Virus record (IMG/VR): IMGVR_UViG_3300005253_000112
Location: 1-55,059 of that record
DNA: 55,059 bases
Direction: 5' to 3' (one strand)
DNA from: a virus
The notes beneath the pieces were generated by a model, which saw nothing but the letters and a program-made list of their open reading frames with translations, was not told the DNA's origin and searched no databases. Numbering within the stretch: the stretch's first letter is position 1; each line of letters opens with the position of its first letter. A program made the position numbers and the translations under genes. This document shows positions 2,994 through 29,406 of the stretch, piece by piece.

Positions 2994-5182
2994 TACGATA
3001 CCGCCGTATCTGTAATGTTGTAACGAGCCGACAAATAGTCCATCACAGTCTGCATGTCGGCGATCGACAGGCCGCTGTCGTAGATTAGGATTTCTGCGAT
3101 GTCGCCGCCGAGGAATGAACCTGTCCCTCCCGAAGAAAGTTCTGCTCCGACCGTGAAGCGATCCAATCGGCTGTCCATTGCGCCGACGTCGAAGTCCGCG
3201 CCCGACGCCCCTGCCAACGCAGCCCCGCCATTCTTGCGAATGTCGAGGATCATACTGCCGGACGTGCCGTTTTTGTTGTCGATCCTGATTACCGGATTAG
3301 CGTCGTTGACCGCATTTGTAGTCGTAACCGCAGCGCTGTCGACCACGTTGTGGTCACGGATAGCAGCACCCCATTTATTTAGCGGGGCTAAGAATATCTT
3401 AATCCAGGGATCGTTGTCGACCGCCTCGGTTGCCGCCCAGAATCTCTCATTCCCCGCCGGCGCAACCCCGTCATGTTTGTAAACGACAAACGACGCAAAC
3501 GCTTGATCGTCGGTATTGAACAAATCCAGGATAGGTCCCGACGAGAGAAACAGATGGTCGGTCGTGCCGTTGAGCCGGATAATCGGGTGGCCGTTGATTA
3601 CGGCTTGCGTTAAGTCTGGCTGGTCGTCTGCGGTGGCCTGTGCGATGTCGTTGCTGTTGCTCGACTTGTCGGGCCACGTGGTGACTTTCGCACCGGTGAA
3701 CGTCGTTCGATCGGCCCGCCACCATGCCTCCATGCCCAATACAGTTTCTTCCTGGAATATCTCCGGAATGTCGTCGGACAGGCTGTCAAAGTTGCCTTGG
3801 ATTTCGGCCGCGGACAGGGCTCGCGACCAATAGGCAGCATGGCGGATGACGCCGTCGCTTTCGGTGAATGTAGGGGCACCGACAGTGCCCGTAGGCATGG
3901 TCGAGATGCCGATTCGCACCATGTCGCCGTCAAGGGTGAATGCATCAGCATCAGTATCAATCAGCACGCCGTCAACCCATAAAGCCCGTTCGGTCGATGA
4001 CGCGCATCTCCAGACCAGGTGGTGAAACTTGCCGTCATCTTGCGTATTGTCCGCACTAAACTTGGCGTCATTGGCACCCGTATTGAACACGCGCCCTTGT
4101 GCGTCGCCCTGGCTTCGCCGCTGCTCTATTTCCACACGGCTGTCGGCGTCGGGAGTTTTAATCATCATAGGCGACGTCAACACGGTAGTCCGAGAATCTG
4201 GCATCCGGGCCAACACCGACAGGGTAAACGGATACGTCACCTCCGACCCGCCGGGCAAGTCGGCCCAGAAACCATCGCTATCCGCGTCCTCGAATACCCA
4301 GGCATCCTCGACAGCGTCGTGAGCCGGGGAGCCCTCCACATTCATCGTCAGAGCCAATGACCCCAGGTCAACGGGCGTCGCCGACTGTGTAATCAAGGCA
4401 TCGATATAGAAATCGGGGTCAAGCTGGGCCACGGTCCGCACGCGCGGAAGCGAGATGCCGGACCACTCCGAAAGGTACTGCCAGACAAGGTCGATTTCCA
4501 CGATCGTCTTCGCGCCCTCGTAGGCGATGATCTGACCAACGTGGCCGCCAAAGAAATTCGAGGCCCCGTCATTCTCGGCAAACAGCGTCATATCGCCGCC
4601 GATGTTCAGCCCGGGCGTCGTAATCGAGAATTTCGGATCACCGACGAACACGCCGTTTATCCACAGGTCGCCGCGGCCGGTGGCTCCGTTGATCCGCCAC
4701 GTGATGATCTGAGCAGCCCCGTTTACGTCGGCGGTCTGCGGGCCGCGGTTATTGCCGTCTGTAAACGAGTCGGTCGCGTCGTTGTAGAGCAAGCCTAGCG
4801 GCCCTGTCGCGGCGTCGAATAGCTTGGACGTTTGGTCAACCACCTCGTCAATGACGAAGAAGAAAGTATAGCTGCCGGTGGTGCTTGACAAGCCCGAGAA
4901 TGTCATCACGTTGTCGGTGCCGTCGGGCTGTACCGAAGGCTGGCCAGTGAACGGCGCATGAGTCGCGTTGAACGCCGGCTGAAGCCCGGCAGTAGACTGA
5001 GCGGCATCGTTGCCGTTACCCGACTGGTCGGCCCATACCGAGACACCGGTCGCCGTGGTGATGCCCTTGTCTGCACGGAGCCAGAACAGGATGCCTGCGA
5101 CCGTCTGGGCGTCGAACCCTTCGCGCAAGTCTCCCGATCCGGCCCCGCCGCGGAATCGTCTTGTGCCTCTGACAAACGGCAT
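2993..5182 (-). CDS. LamG/concanavalin-like virion or fibre protein (729 aa)
   Basis: The protein looks like three jelly-roll (LamG/ConA-like) units. Residues 20-235 and 485-729 are recognisable repeats: both have W.RAD, then V.W.D.S.N.NDAAQ or NDIAQ.TA..QP, then a DGT or NGTTD strand. A middle unit spans about 255-475. Such domains on phage tail fibres bind surface carbohydrates. It follows two other virion-like genes on the same strand. The role as receptor-binding or fibre protein is inferred; the fold assignment is fairly firm. Confidence 0.75.
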   Translation of the reverse strand: MPFVRGTRRFRGGAGSGDLREGFDAQTVAGILFWLRADKGITTATGVSVWADQSGNGNDAAQSTAGLQPAFNATHAPFTGQPSVQPDGTDNVMTFSGLSSTTGSYTFFFVIDEVVDQTSKLFDAATGPLGLLYNDATDSFTDGNNRGPQTADVNGAAQIITWRINGATGRGDLWINGVFVGDPKFSITTPGLNIGGDMTLFAENDGASNFFGGHVGQIIAYEGAKTIVEIDLVWQYLSEWSGISLPRVRTVAQLDPDFYIDALITQSATPVDLGSLALTMNVEGSPAHDAVEDAWVFEDADSDGFWADLPGGSEVTYPFTLSVLARMPDSRTTVLTSPMMIKTPDADSRVEIEQRRSQGDAQGRVFNTGANDAKFSADNTQDDGKFHHLVWRCASSTERALWVDGVLIDTDADAFTLDGDMVRIGISTMPTGTVGAPTFTESDGVIRHAAYWSRALSAAEIQGNFDSLSDDIPEIFQEETVLGMEAWWRADRTTFTGAKVTTWPDKSSNSNDIAQATADDQPDLTQAVINGHPIIRLNGTTDHLFLSSGPILDLFNTDDQAFASFVVYKHDGVAPAGNERFWAATEAVDNDPWIKIFLAPLNKWGAAIRDHNVVDSAAVTTTNAVNDANPVIRIDNKNGTSGSMILDIRKNGGAALAGASGADFDVGAMDSRLDRFTVGAELSSGGTGSFLGGDIAEILIYDSGLSIADMQTVMDYLSARYNITDTAVS

Positions 5183-8527: not shown

Positions 8528-9169
8528 ATGTCCAAAATCCACCTAGTTACACCCTCGCTCTGTCGTCAGTGGGGTGCGTGTTACGATGACGACAAACTGC
8601 ATAACTTACTTGGCGATGGGTTAACGCCGTTGAAGGTATTGGCCCTGGATATTCCAGTAGCGGATCGGTTATGGACCGTTCTGAGGCCGGAGCTTTTGAC
8701 AGACTGCGACCTACGCTTATTCGGCTGCTGGTGCGCCACCCTCGCACTAAAGGCGGAACAGTCTGCCGGCCATGAACCCGACGATCGTAGTTGGGCGGCC
8801 GTCAATGTGGCGGAACAGTTCGCATACGGTCGAATTGCTCAATCAGAAATGGCTGCCGCCGAGGCTGATGCCTGGTCTGCCGCCGAGGCCGCCAGGGCTG
8901 CCGCATGGGCTGCCGCATGGGCTGCCGGGGCTGCCGCCAGGGCCGCCGGCAGGGCTGCCGGCAGGGCTGCCGGGGCTGCCGCCAGGGCTGCCGCCAGGGC
9001 TGCCGGCAGGGCTGCCGGGGCTGCCGCCAGGGCTGCCGCCGAGGCCGCCGGCAGGGCTGCCGGCAGGGCTGCCGGGGCTGCCGCCAGGGCCGCCGGGGCT
9101 GCCGAGGCTGTTCACATAGATTACCTGCGCGATCTGCTTTCCAATCCTTCGGAAACTTCTAAGCAGTAA
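8528..9169 (+). CDS. Protein with Ala/Arg/Gly-repeat tail, immunity-protein-like (213 aa)
   Basis: The ATG (MSKIHLVTP) has AAGGGGAAG upstream. Residues 1-105 are a helical domain with DCDLRLFGCWCATLAL and DDRSWAAVNVAEQFAYGRI. Residues 115-195 are almost only A, R, G and W in AAARAAGRAAG units, predicted as one very long helix. This arrangement resembles putative-immunity-type proteins with Ala-rich helices; the link is by eye. The repeat DNA (8880-9110) is a GC-rich near-tandem of GCTGCCGSC-type units, so length variation by slippage is likely. Confidence 0.6.
   Translation: MSKIHLVTPSLCRQWGACYDDDKLHNLLGDGLTPLKVLALDIPVADRLWTVLRPELLTDCDLRLFGCWCATLALKAEQSAGHEPDDRSWAAVNVAEQFAYGRIAQSEMAAAEADAWSAAEAARAAAWAAAWAAGAAARAAGRAAGRAAGAAARAAARAAGRAAGAAARAAAEAAGRAAGRAAGAAARAAGAAEAVHIDYLRDLLSNPSETSKQ
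8880..9110. repeat. GC-rich in-frame tandem repeat
   Basis: Imperfect units of about 12-15 bp built from GCTGCCG, GCAGG and CCAGG repeat for 230 bp. The unit length is a multiple of three, so the Ala-rich frame is kept. All plus frames and the opposite strand stay open through it because the repeat lacks stop triplets. Confidence 0.8.
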
Positions 9170-26789: not shown

Positions 26790-26859
26790 ATCTTGTCTTG
26801 TCTTGTCGGGTCGCGTCATGTCCTGTCATGTCGAGTCCCGTCGAGTCCGGTCTAGTCGC
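26790..26859 (-). repeat. GTCNN array 1 (14 pentamer units)
   Basis: Plus strand reads ATCTT then GTCTT, GTCTT, GTCGG, GTCGC, GTCAT, GTCCT and so on: 14 units of 5 bp, GTC fixed after the first, dinucleotides variable. It lies immediately 3' of the stop of the gene at 26864 (minus orientation) and ends in AAGATTTT. On RNA the phase is GAC NN GAC NN. Confidence 0.9.
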
Positions 26860-26863
26860 GTGT

Positions 26864-27457
26864 TCATTCGCTCTTTGGCTTCATCAAGTCAATGACCTTT
26901 GTCGCGTCCGGTTCATGCATGTTTGGCAAGTTGGCTCTCTCTAACCGCTTCCGGAACGGCCCGCCGCCAAACAGATACAGAAGGCCGGCCTGTGCTGTGT
27001 TCAGGTTATGGTCTCGCCGCTGGTCGTCTGTGAGCCGGCTCGTGTCAGTATGGGTCGCTACGCGGATGGCTCGCTTGGCCAGCTTGCGTGACCGCTTGAT
27101 CTTGCCGCTTACATCCACAACCTTCTCATGGTCGTGTAGACACTTCCACGCCTGCAAGCCTTTGTCCCAGCGCCAAATGACACCGTGCTCACGTTCGACG
27201 TGTATGATTGCCGAGTTGACGTTACCGTAGCCGTTGGTCTGTGACTCACACGACCGGCCGATAATGTCTGCCATCTGCGCTCTGGTAAACGTATCGCCCG
27301 CGTGCCCTGTTTTGAATCGTTCAATCGCCTTGGCTGTGTGCGGACCCATGATGCCCGGGAATTGCGGCGGTTGGCGTTTAGAACCATCGCCGAGACGATC
27401 ATCCGCTTGCGACAAAGCATCGCGCCGCAGTTCTTCATATGTCGATGGTTTGCTCAT
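26864..27457 (-). CDS. Protein of unknown function, flanked by arrays (197 aa)
   Basis: The start MSKPSTYEEL follows AAGAGGC and an ACCCTAACCCTAA stretch. It is basic, with FTRAQMADIIGRSCESQ and a DDQRRDHNLNTAQAGLL segment that could be a winged-helix-like fold; the C-terminus (FRKRLERANLPNM) is basic. Both sides are GTCNN arrays. It is therefore a candidate array-binding protein, but no family is recognised. Confidence 0.65.
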   Translation of the reverse strand: MSKPSTYEELRRDALSQADDRLGDGSKRQPPQFPGIMGPHTAKAIERFKTGHAGDTFTRAQMADIIGRSCESQTNGYGNVNSAIIHVEREHGVIWRWDKGLQAWKCLHDHEKVVDVSGKIKRSRKLAKRAIRVATHTDTSRLTDDQRRDHNLNTAQAGLLYLFGGGPFRKRLERANLPNMHEPDATKVIDLMKPKSE

Positions 27458-27487
27458 TCGTCAAGCCTCTTAGGGTTAGGGTAAAAA

Positions 27488-27652
27488 ATCTTGTCTTGTC
27501 TTGTCGGGTCGGGTCGTGTCAAGTCGGGTCGTGTCTTGTCATGTCCCGTCAAGTCGCGTTGAATGAATAAGTGCGTCTTGTCTTGTCTTGTCGGGTCCAG
27601 TCTAGTCGAGTCCCGTCCTGTCGAGTCAGGTCATGTCCAGTCGCGTCGGGTC
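27488..27652 (-). repeat. GTCNN array 2 (14 units, 17-bp spacer, 15 units)
   Basis: Sub-array 27488-27557 (14 units, ATCTT then GTCNN), spacer GTTGAATGAATAAGTGC (27558-27574), and sub-array 27575-27649 (15 units), plus one more GTC at 27650-27652 that overlaps the stop codon of the gene at 27651-28241. It occupies nearly the whole intergenic gap. Confidence 0.9.
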
Positions 27653-28241
27653 AGACTACCTCCACTTCCTCAGCAGCAAACTCTTCAATCGCACACCGCC
27701 CGTTAATCCCACCGTTCTGCACGCGCATCGAACCGAACCCGATGAACTTCCCAAAGGCGTCCAAGTGTCGCTCCATCACGTCGCCCGTGATCTTGTTATC
27801 GAACACATGAACGACGGCATCTGCTCGCCACTCGGTGATGGTGGGGAATATCTTGATGACCCGCTTGCTGCCTCCTCGCTTGCCGTCCGACGGCACAAAC
27901 AACTCGCGGCCCTCGACGTCATCCAGGGTAATACGCGACCCGTCGGCCTTGTACAGCAACAGCTTGTCGACAACCAGGATGCCCGCGATGAATCGCTTCG
28001 TGAAGGTCTTGCGGGACTCGCCGGGTATCTTCAGTGATAGCCATTGCGACGCGCTCTCCAATCCGTTCTTTAGTGCAAACGGCTGGAGGAAACACTGTCC
28101 ATCGGTAGCTACAGCTACCTTCTTACGCCACGTTCGCCGCTCGTGTTGGTCGTGCGTTTCGTCATCCTTCTTTCGTTCGGACACATACATCCCAAACATC
28201 AAATCGGAAATGCCAACCACAGTAAACTTACATAGCAACAT
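27651..28241 (-). CDS. Protein of unknown function, flanked by arrays (196 aa)
   Basis: The start MLLCKFTVVGISD has AAGGGAGT upstream; a longer in-frame reading goes into array 3 and is rejected. Basic residues concentrate in the first half (SERKKDDETHDQHERRTWRKK). The tail FIGFGSMRVQNGGINGR is Gly-rich, reminiscent of the Gly-rich loop of RAMP/Cas7-like RNA-binding folds, but that is a weak visual likeness. Being enclosed by GTCNN arrays makes it another candidate partner. Confidence 0.6.
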   Translation of the reverse strand: MLLCKFTVVGISDLMFGMYVSERKKDDETHDQHERRTWRKKVAVATDGQCFLQPFALKNGLESASQWLSLKIPGESRKTFTKRFIAGILVVDKLLLYKADGSRITLDDVEGRELFVPSDGKRGGSKRVIKIFPTITEWRADAVVHVFDNKITGDVMERHLDAFGKFIGFGSMRVQNGGINGRCAIEEFAAEEVEVV

Positions 28242-28265
28242 CGTTCGTACTCCCTTGTTAAAGTA

Positions 28266-28482
28266 ATCAGGTCTTGTCTTGTCCAGTCCAGTCACGTCCA
28301 GTCAGGTCAAGTCAGGTCGTGTCATGTCAAGTCATGTCGCGTTGAATGAATAAGTGCGTCGTGTCTTGTCGTGTCGCGTCGGGTCATGTCAGGTCGGGTC
28401 GTGTCAAGTCCAGTCACGTCCAGTCACGTCATGTCGAGTCCTGTCAAGTCCAGTCACGTCCAGTCGAGTCGTGTCAAGTCAT
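28266..28482 (-). repeat. GTCNN array 3 (15 units, 17-bp spacer, 25 units)
   Basis: Sub-array 28266-28340 (15 units), the spacer GTTGAATGAATAAGTGC (28341-28357), identical to that in array 2, then sub-array 28358-28482 (25 units). The dinucleotides after GTC here include TT, CA, AC, AG, AA, GT, AT, GC. The array fills the gap between the gene at 28483 and the next gene's ribosome site. Confidence 0.9.
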
Positions 28483-29406
28483 TTACGCTTCACCTCTCGG
28501 AAACTCCCGAACCCGCAACTTCGTCGGCCATGCATCCGGGTATGGTTCGCCGTGCGGTACTTTCAGTAGCTTGCCGCCGATGTTAATTTGCTTGACGTAG
28601 ACCGGCGTCCCCGCGTGTCGGCACTGGTGCACAACAAGATCGACATCGCCTATGTTACCGACCCTTGCACCCTTGCCGGACTCGTGGCCGACGATGGTCC
28701 AGCCGATCGACTCGCCTTCGCAGATCGAGCATGCGTCAACGCCTGGATCGTGGTTCCCCTCGCAGTTGTCACACAACCACGGCGTCAGATCGATCCAGTC
28801 CAGTGCCGGCTCGAACGATACGAAATGCACGCGGGCCGGGCATTTGAGCAAGTGCGGTATTCGCTCGTCGGCGGTCTGCTGGTTCTCGACCGAGACGCCG
28901 AGACGGACGTTGGGTGCGACGCTGCGTGTTATCGTGGCCTCAGCCAGGACTTGCTCGCCACGGCCGGCGCGAAATTCTTGCCCTACCCACGGCTTGGTGT
29001 GAAGGAAGTCTCGCATCCGTTCCGCCCGTTTAGTCAGAATATGGAATCTGTGCAGCGGGCTCATAATCATCACGCAAAACACTTTGGCAATAAACTCATC
29101 CGGTACGTCATCGTGAAACAGATCACCCATCAAACAAACCGCAACAGACCGCGGCTTTTTCCACGACAGCGGTTCGGCCAGTCGTTCCGGGAACAGTTGA
29201 ATCTTGCTGAATGGCTCGTCGTATTGCTTCGGCCGGGGACCCTTCGTCCACGTCGCGTTGCGCCGCTTCGTGTGCAGGTCTGCCGCCCAGCAGTTCTGAC
29301 AGCCGGGGGATACCGGCGTACAGCCGGTCATCGGATTCCAGGATTCGCCTTTGTATCCCGGCTGGTTGAGCCATTCGATTCCGTGGCCCGTCTTACGCTT
29401 TGCCAT
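28483..29406 (-). CDS. Gp37/Gp68 family (DUF5131) protein (307 aa)
   Basis: It has the DUF5131 signature: IEWLNQPGYKGESWNPMTGCTPVSPGCQNCWAADL at the front with three conserved cysteines, LMGDLFHDDVP, ILTKRAERM, PNVRLGVSVENQ and FVSFEPALDWI. A second cysteine set (CDNCEGNH, DACSIC) is extra zinc. Members look radical-SAM-like, and phage copies (Gp37/Gp68) have no proven substrate. Confidence 0.9.
   Translation of the reverse strand: MAKRKTGHGIEWLNQPGYKGESWNPMTGCTPVSPGCQNCWAADLHTKRRNATWTKGPRPKQYDEPFSKIQLFPERLAEPLSWKKPRSVAVCLMGDLFHDDVPDEFIAKVFCVMIMSPLHRFHILTKRAERMRDFLHTKPWVGQEFRAGRGEQVLAEATITRSVAPNVRLGVSVENQQTADERIPHLLKCPARVHFVSFEPALDWIDLTPWLCDNCEGNHDPGVDACSICEGESIGWTIVGHESGKGARVGNIGDVDLVVHQCRHAGTPVYVKQINIGGKLLKVPHGEPYPDAWPTKLRVREFPRGEA

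Follow-up and report, generated by a model that had tools for sequence, protein, structure and literature searches.

The viral DNA analysed here, a 55,059-nt window comprising positions 1 to 55,059 of IMG/VR record IMGVR_UViG_3300005253_000112, contains five arrays of tandem GTCNN pentamers that occupy the three gaps separating four leftward genes of this 55.4-kb tailed-phage record. Exact GTCNN runs on the plus strand comprise 13, 13, 16, 14 and 25 units, 81 in total, and lag-5 identity is 0.66-0.72 inside the arrays versus 0.26 window-wide. These two measures confirm the period-5 arrays in three gaps between four consecutive genes that an initial annotation had described, the second being a check that it had proposed; its five arrays also stand, whereas its tally of 83 units (14, 14, 15, 15 and 25) departs from the exact counts by one or two units in an array. 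A pattern of five units plus GTC gives 56 overlapping forward matches in the record versus none for the reversed pattern, and no other runs of at least four GTC or GAC units occur elsewhere in the window. Because the three gaps separate leftward genes, the arrays read (GACNN)n on the coding strand; the GTC pattern first described is real, but the informative strand is that of the genes.

Read along the gene strand (all features on the minus strand), the first gap holds array 5 (28356-28482; exact run 28358-28482; 25 units) and array 4 (28269-28340; exact run 28271-28340; 14 units, ending in ...GACAAGACAAGAC), the latter lying upstream of the gene that we call vipr. The second gap holds array 3 (27573-27654; exact run 27575-27654; 16 units) and array 2 (27491-27557; exact run 27493-27557; 13 units), and array 1 (26793-26859; exact run 26795-26859; 13 units) stands in the third. 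Both array pairs are joined by an identical 17-nt linker, GCACTTATTCATTCAAC, at 28341-28357 and, between arrays 3 and 2, at 27558-27574; the linker is a candidate tail or handle. The initial annotation had each array starting at a gene stop and ending near the next ribosome site. The former holds for the first array of each gap, which begins at the stop codon or a few bases off it: the TAA at 28483-28485 is followed by unit 1, the vipr TGA lies within the first unit (CTGAC), and the TGA of the next gene, vap, stands ~5 bases before array 1. The latter holds in two gaps, where the last array ends about 28 and 34 nt from the next start codon, and fails in the third (about 134 nt). Units with AA-AA terminate the 3' end of the window's GAC arrays. 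Array 5 contains an internal near-repeat (TG GT TG TT) that partly recurs in array 4, and a period-30 repeat was detected in it; it may have arisen by a recent duplication, or consist of two guides that overlap or have merged. A DUF5131 family gene (28483-29406, minus strand) lies directly upstream of array 5. A hammerhead ribozyme between the arrays was also considered and set aside, as Rfam gave no match.

The gene between the arrays, vipr (27651-28241, minus strand), encodes a 196-aa protein belonging to phrog_4652, a PHROG entry without assigned function that we refer to as family A (~190 aa). A profile search with family A returned one clear solved structure, PDB 36pp, "SUSP1 Vipr protein" (E=2.5e-11), and this match led us to the preprint describing VIPR, or Viral Interference Programmable Repeat (PMC13142463). 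In the reciprocal hhalign comparison, the SUSP1 gene matched the Vipr profile with E=1.2e-12, most strongly in the C-terminal G-loop region, which in the window protein reads GFGSMRVQNGG. Family A is ~16% identical to SUSP1 Vipr across the aligned part, and tblastn of the window protein against sequenced phages found no relative. An AlphaFold model of the window protein (predicted local distance difference test score, pLDDT, 95.1) has as its top PDB neighbours in Foldseek the type VII Cas7 and Csm3 subunits, which are CRISPR RAMPs. By profile homology, then, this gene is a Vipr homologue, and its product is confidently predicted to be a Cas7/Csm3-like RAMP that would bind guide RNA. The neighbouring gene, vap (vipr-accessory protein; 26864-27457, minus strand), encodes a 197-aa member of family B (~170 aa), which is conserved next to vipr across many loci; the window copy has no match in Pfam or PHROG. 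The order of helices and strands in its AlphaFold model (pLDDT 87.6) predicts a winged helix of DNA-binding type, and Foldseek returned weak matches only, several of them winged-helix regulators.

VIPR was reported in a preprint that appeared in April 2026 and, as version 2, in June 2026; its main text is the basis of our comparison (PMC13142463). It describes an RNA-guided weapon of phages against rival phages, mainly encoded by phages or prophages, with phage SUSP1 and a Pseudomonas fulva prophage as the characterised examples. The phage encodes an ancestral RAMP, which has an RRM core and a G-loop, next to an accessory gene, and the vrRNAs consist of 9-16 YNNGG units that precede an invariable 3' tail; the hypervariable NN between fixed triplets pair with DNA, skipping one base (PMC13142463). 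The window shares with the two characterised systems a ~20 kDa RAMP and a single accessory gene with several arrays around both, and intergenic period-5 arrays of a fixed triplet plus a hypervariable dinucleotide on the vipr strand; its arrays of 13, 13, 14 and 16 units fit the published range. The initial annotation knew of no described element with such a rule, a claim overtaken by the vrRNA arrays of VIPR and by the Vipr homologue between the arrays. It had rightly set the arrays apart from ordinary microsatellites, CRISPR arrays, tRNAs and iteron sets. Class 1 CRISPR RAMPs (Csm3/Cas7 and type VII Cas7) belong to the same fold family as the window protein in Foldseek and, as in VIPR, coat a guide RNA at a short regular period. 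However, the window protein is smaller, the unit is 5 nt as opposed to the 6-nt spacing on CRISPR RNA, and the near-identical repeats of ~20-50 nt with unique spacers that define CRISPR-Cas are absent, since the period is 5 and the triplet alone is fixed; adaptation or effector genes were not seen alongside. We conclude that the five arrays are, very probably, vrRNA guide genes and that, with vipr and vap, they make up a VIPR system encoded by this phage.

This association extends well beyond the window. When viral contigs were scanned blindly for (GTCNN)6GTC, a pattern search of the kind the initial annotation had suggested, at least 120 stretches matched, including 61 classed as microsatellites, whose best six-unit run has no more than two NN types, and 53 that are variable like those of the window. 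Six different NNs within a six-unit run occurred in 39 of the 120 stretches listed, versus none of 120 for the control (CTGNN)6CTG, in which the triplet is reversed, indicating that GTCNN arrays are not generic low complexity. In this DNA-defined set, Vipr is present in 38/53 stretches with variable arrays versus 2/61 with microsatellites (Fisher p=1.2e-15), and Vap in 22/53 versus 0/61; the two microsatellite stretches with Vipr have low scores, and one (L007) also carries GGC arrays. In most unrelated contigs inspected, variable arrays lie between co-directional genes with GTC opposite the gene strand, and families A and B recur beside them. The 1888 units of 151 non-identical GAC/GTC arrays, drawn from the window and its relatives, have an NN entropy of 3.96 of 4 bits, so the dinucleotides vary almost freely while triplet and spacing are kept, as first proposed; NN codon-phase composition gave a weak and ambiguous signal. 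Viral contigs do contain perfect pentamer microsatellites, GTCGG among them, and the arrays could in principle be neutral DNA of low complexity or an artefact of assembly. The control scan speaks against this explanation, and it is contradicted by the recurrence of array types beside the same gene pair in unrelated contigs that come from different samples; we give it almost no weight.

Two further explanations take the arrays as sites that act in DNA. The T7 gp4 primase recognises the pentamer NNGTC, and the arrays match this site as tiled copies. However, this phage has a DnaB-type helicase with a DnaC-like loader, the arrays track Vipr, and a GTC-specific primase would not account for arrays of the same layout with GGC, CGC, CTC and GTT cores in Vipr relatives; we dropped the primase explanation because such relatives were found, and regard it as extremely improbable. 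The arrays might otherwise be operators or replication-control sites at which a phage protein, Vap or another, contacts GTC once per half turn of the helix. The predicted winged-helix protein adjoins the arrays, and replication genes (a DnaB-type helicase, a DnaC-like loader and an initiator-like protein) follow them on the same strand, both of which would suit such sites. Left unexplained are the near-maximal NN entropy, the fixed strand relative to Vipr, the conserved AA-AA end (shared with many relatives' GGC arrays) and the RAMP gene between the arrays, and in SUSP1 arrays of the same layout are transcribed and bound by Vipr (PMC13142463). We consider DNA-level sites improbable, if somewhat less so than the primase sites or neutral DNA.

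By analogy with the SUSP1 and P. fulva systems as published, each array would be transcribed from the gene strand into an RNA of tandem GACNN units. Vipr RAMP subunits would coat this RNA, one per five bases, gripping GAC and presenting NN. Together, the NN pairs would then read the double-stranded DNA of a rival phage or satellite, skipping one base per unit (target NNxNNxNN...), and this recognition would block the rival's transcription.

Several observations weigh against assigning the locus to VIPR or set it apart from the characterised systems. The window triplet is GAC, as opposed to the GGY (GGC/GGT) of characterised VIPR. "GAC" does not appear in the main text of the preprint, which allows "a related consensus (fig. 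S17)" (PMC13142463); GAC falls under that wording and outside strict GGY. The 25 units of array 5 exceed the published 9-16, and the two array pairs with an identical linker distinguish the window from the characterised systems. The match of Vap to the SUSP1 gene beside vipr is weak (E=1.4e-4, probability 53%); together with the winged-helix prediction it fits the preprint's account that several vap genes are DNA-binding (PMC13142463). A promoter and terminator consensus scan gave nothing above chance, and as to a structured 3' tail, only the common 17-nt linker and the AA-AA end were seen. In target searches, 8-unit one-skip seeds from arrays 2-5 extended at chance level in IMG/VR, and in an all-against-all search of the gathered DNA the one-base skip could not be told from the controls: the real arrays gave 19 hits scoring 18/20 and 3 scoring 19/20, and unit shuffles gave 9-21 scoring 18/20. 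On the main text of the preprint, the locus is best described as a VIPR system with a GAC core, of a known kind with a fixed triplet that is new to that text; GAC may already be catalogued in the supplement, and we do not claim priority.

Array 1 provides a weak lead to a DnaB-like target. Read along the opposite strand under the one-base skip rule, its NNs decode to [FL][FL]GA[IM]L[IM][DE]P[DE]RYA, a motif that we take to resemble the N-terminus of DnaB-type helicases. The 8-unit seed of this array matched 13 viral stretches, among them two DnaB-like helicases (L222 and L231) and a deaminase-like gene in near-identical phages (L224 and L227; 10 consecutive units), all named by reading the translated sequence. 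In these four the skipped base is the third codon position. The window's own DnaB-type helicase has no match to array 1. Matches of array 4 to L258 and L261 extend for 7/12 but are out of codon phase, and we take them as chance.

The fixed triplet varies among Vipr relatives, which we found in 175 viral stretches versus 4 bacterial genome contigs. Arrays within 5 kb of Vipr, read on its strand, have cores GAC (107), GGC (58), CGC (26), GTC (19), GTT (3), CTC (3) and GGT (2), counts in which copies of one phage in several contigs count separately; the third base is a pyrimidine in every one. The identical reading of SUSP1, as a positive control, yielded GGT/GGC arrays on the vipr strand. A further 79 viral loci were retrieved with the Vipr profile and no other criterion; in these, an unbiased period-5 finder gave GGC in 31, GAC in 9, CGC in 9, CTC in 3, GTT in 2 and GTC in 1. 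No period-5 array was detected in the other 24 of the 79 (e.g. L143, L144, L150), which have a clear Vipr and often Vap; these loci likely carry guides that are shorter or more degenerate. In a tree of 84 Vipr rows, the GAC core requires 7 changes versus 20.3 in shuffles, indicating that the core changes along the Vipr phylogeny. The window falls within a six-row all-GAC group (with L026, L117, L118, L063 and L011) with a Shimodaira-Hasegawa-like approximate likelihood ratio test (SH-aLRT) value of 100. Two minus-strand loci, L044:4324-4952 and L090:5307-5358, have GTC, not GAC, on the vipr strand and form their own supported pair.

The residue following the GxG of the G-loop differs with the core. 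Arginine occupies this position in 30/31 proteins with a called non-GAC array (19/19 GGC, 5/5 CGC, 3/3 GTC, 2/2 GTT and 1/2 CTC) versus 3/23 with GAC. This correlation is phylogenetically confounded (an independent-pairs test had 2 supported pairs and no power), and SUSP1 Vipr has aspartate after GxG; for both reasons we treat the residue as a candidate determinant of the triplet. We suggest, tentatively and at rather less than even confidence, that guide scaffolds are re-codable, the triplet having switched repeatedly among GGC, GAC, CGC, GTC, GTT and CTC within one Vipr family, that the G-loop residue helps to set the accepted triplet, and that phages thus carry mutually orthogonal guide systems.

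Two other loci have distinctive arrays. A contig of 70% G+C carries nine within about 1.2 kb (L017:8054-9262) beside a weak Vipr match. In phage wV8, direct repeats annotated as "DR_4" overlap or adjoin GGT arrays beside a Vipr homologue (L221:1899-1956 and 3292-3349); these repeats, annotated before VIPR was described, are possibly parts of vrRNA genes. As for the window itself, PHROG matches to terminase, portal, major head and tape measure proteins mark it as a tailed phage, with a terminase at most ~48% identical to those of sequenced phages. Unconnected with the arrays, it also contains a long tandem repeat at 8888-9110, in which GCCGCCAGGGCT units recur with a 45-bp period.

The period-5 rule alone lets VIPR, a discovery only months old, be recognised from raw sequence. 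GAC-core arrays in dozens of viral contigs, beside GGC, CGC, GTC, GTT and CTC, point to a fixed triplet that can evolve, and guides built on a noncontiguous code are proposed to predate CRISPR effectors (PMC13142463). Triplet specificity can be tested directly through the G-loop correlation, and Vipr proteins with different cores, if orthogonal, would provide separate programmable channels.
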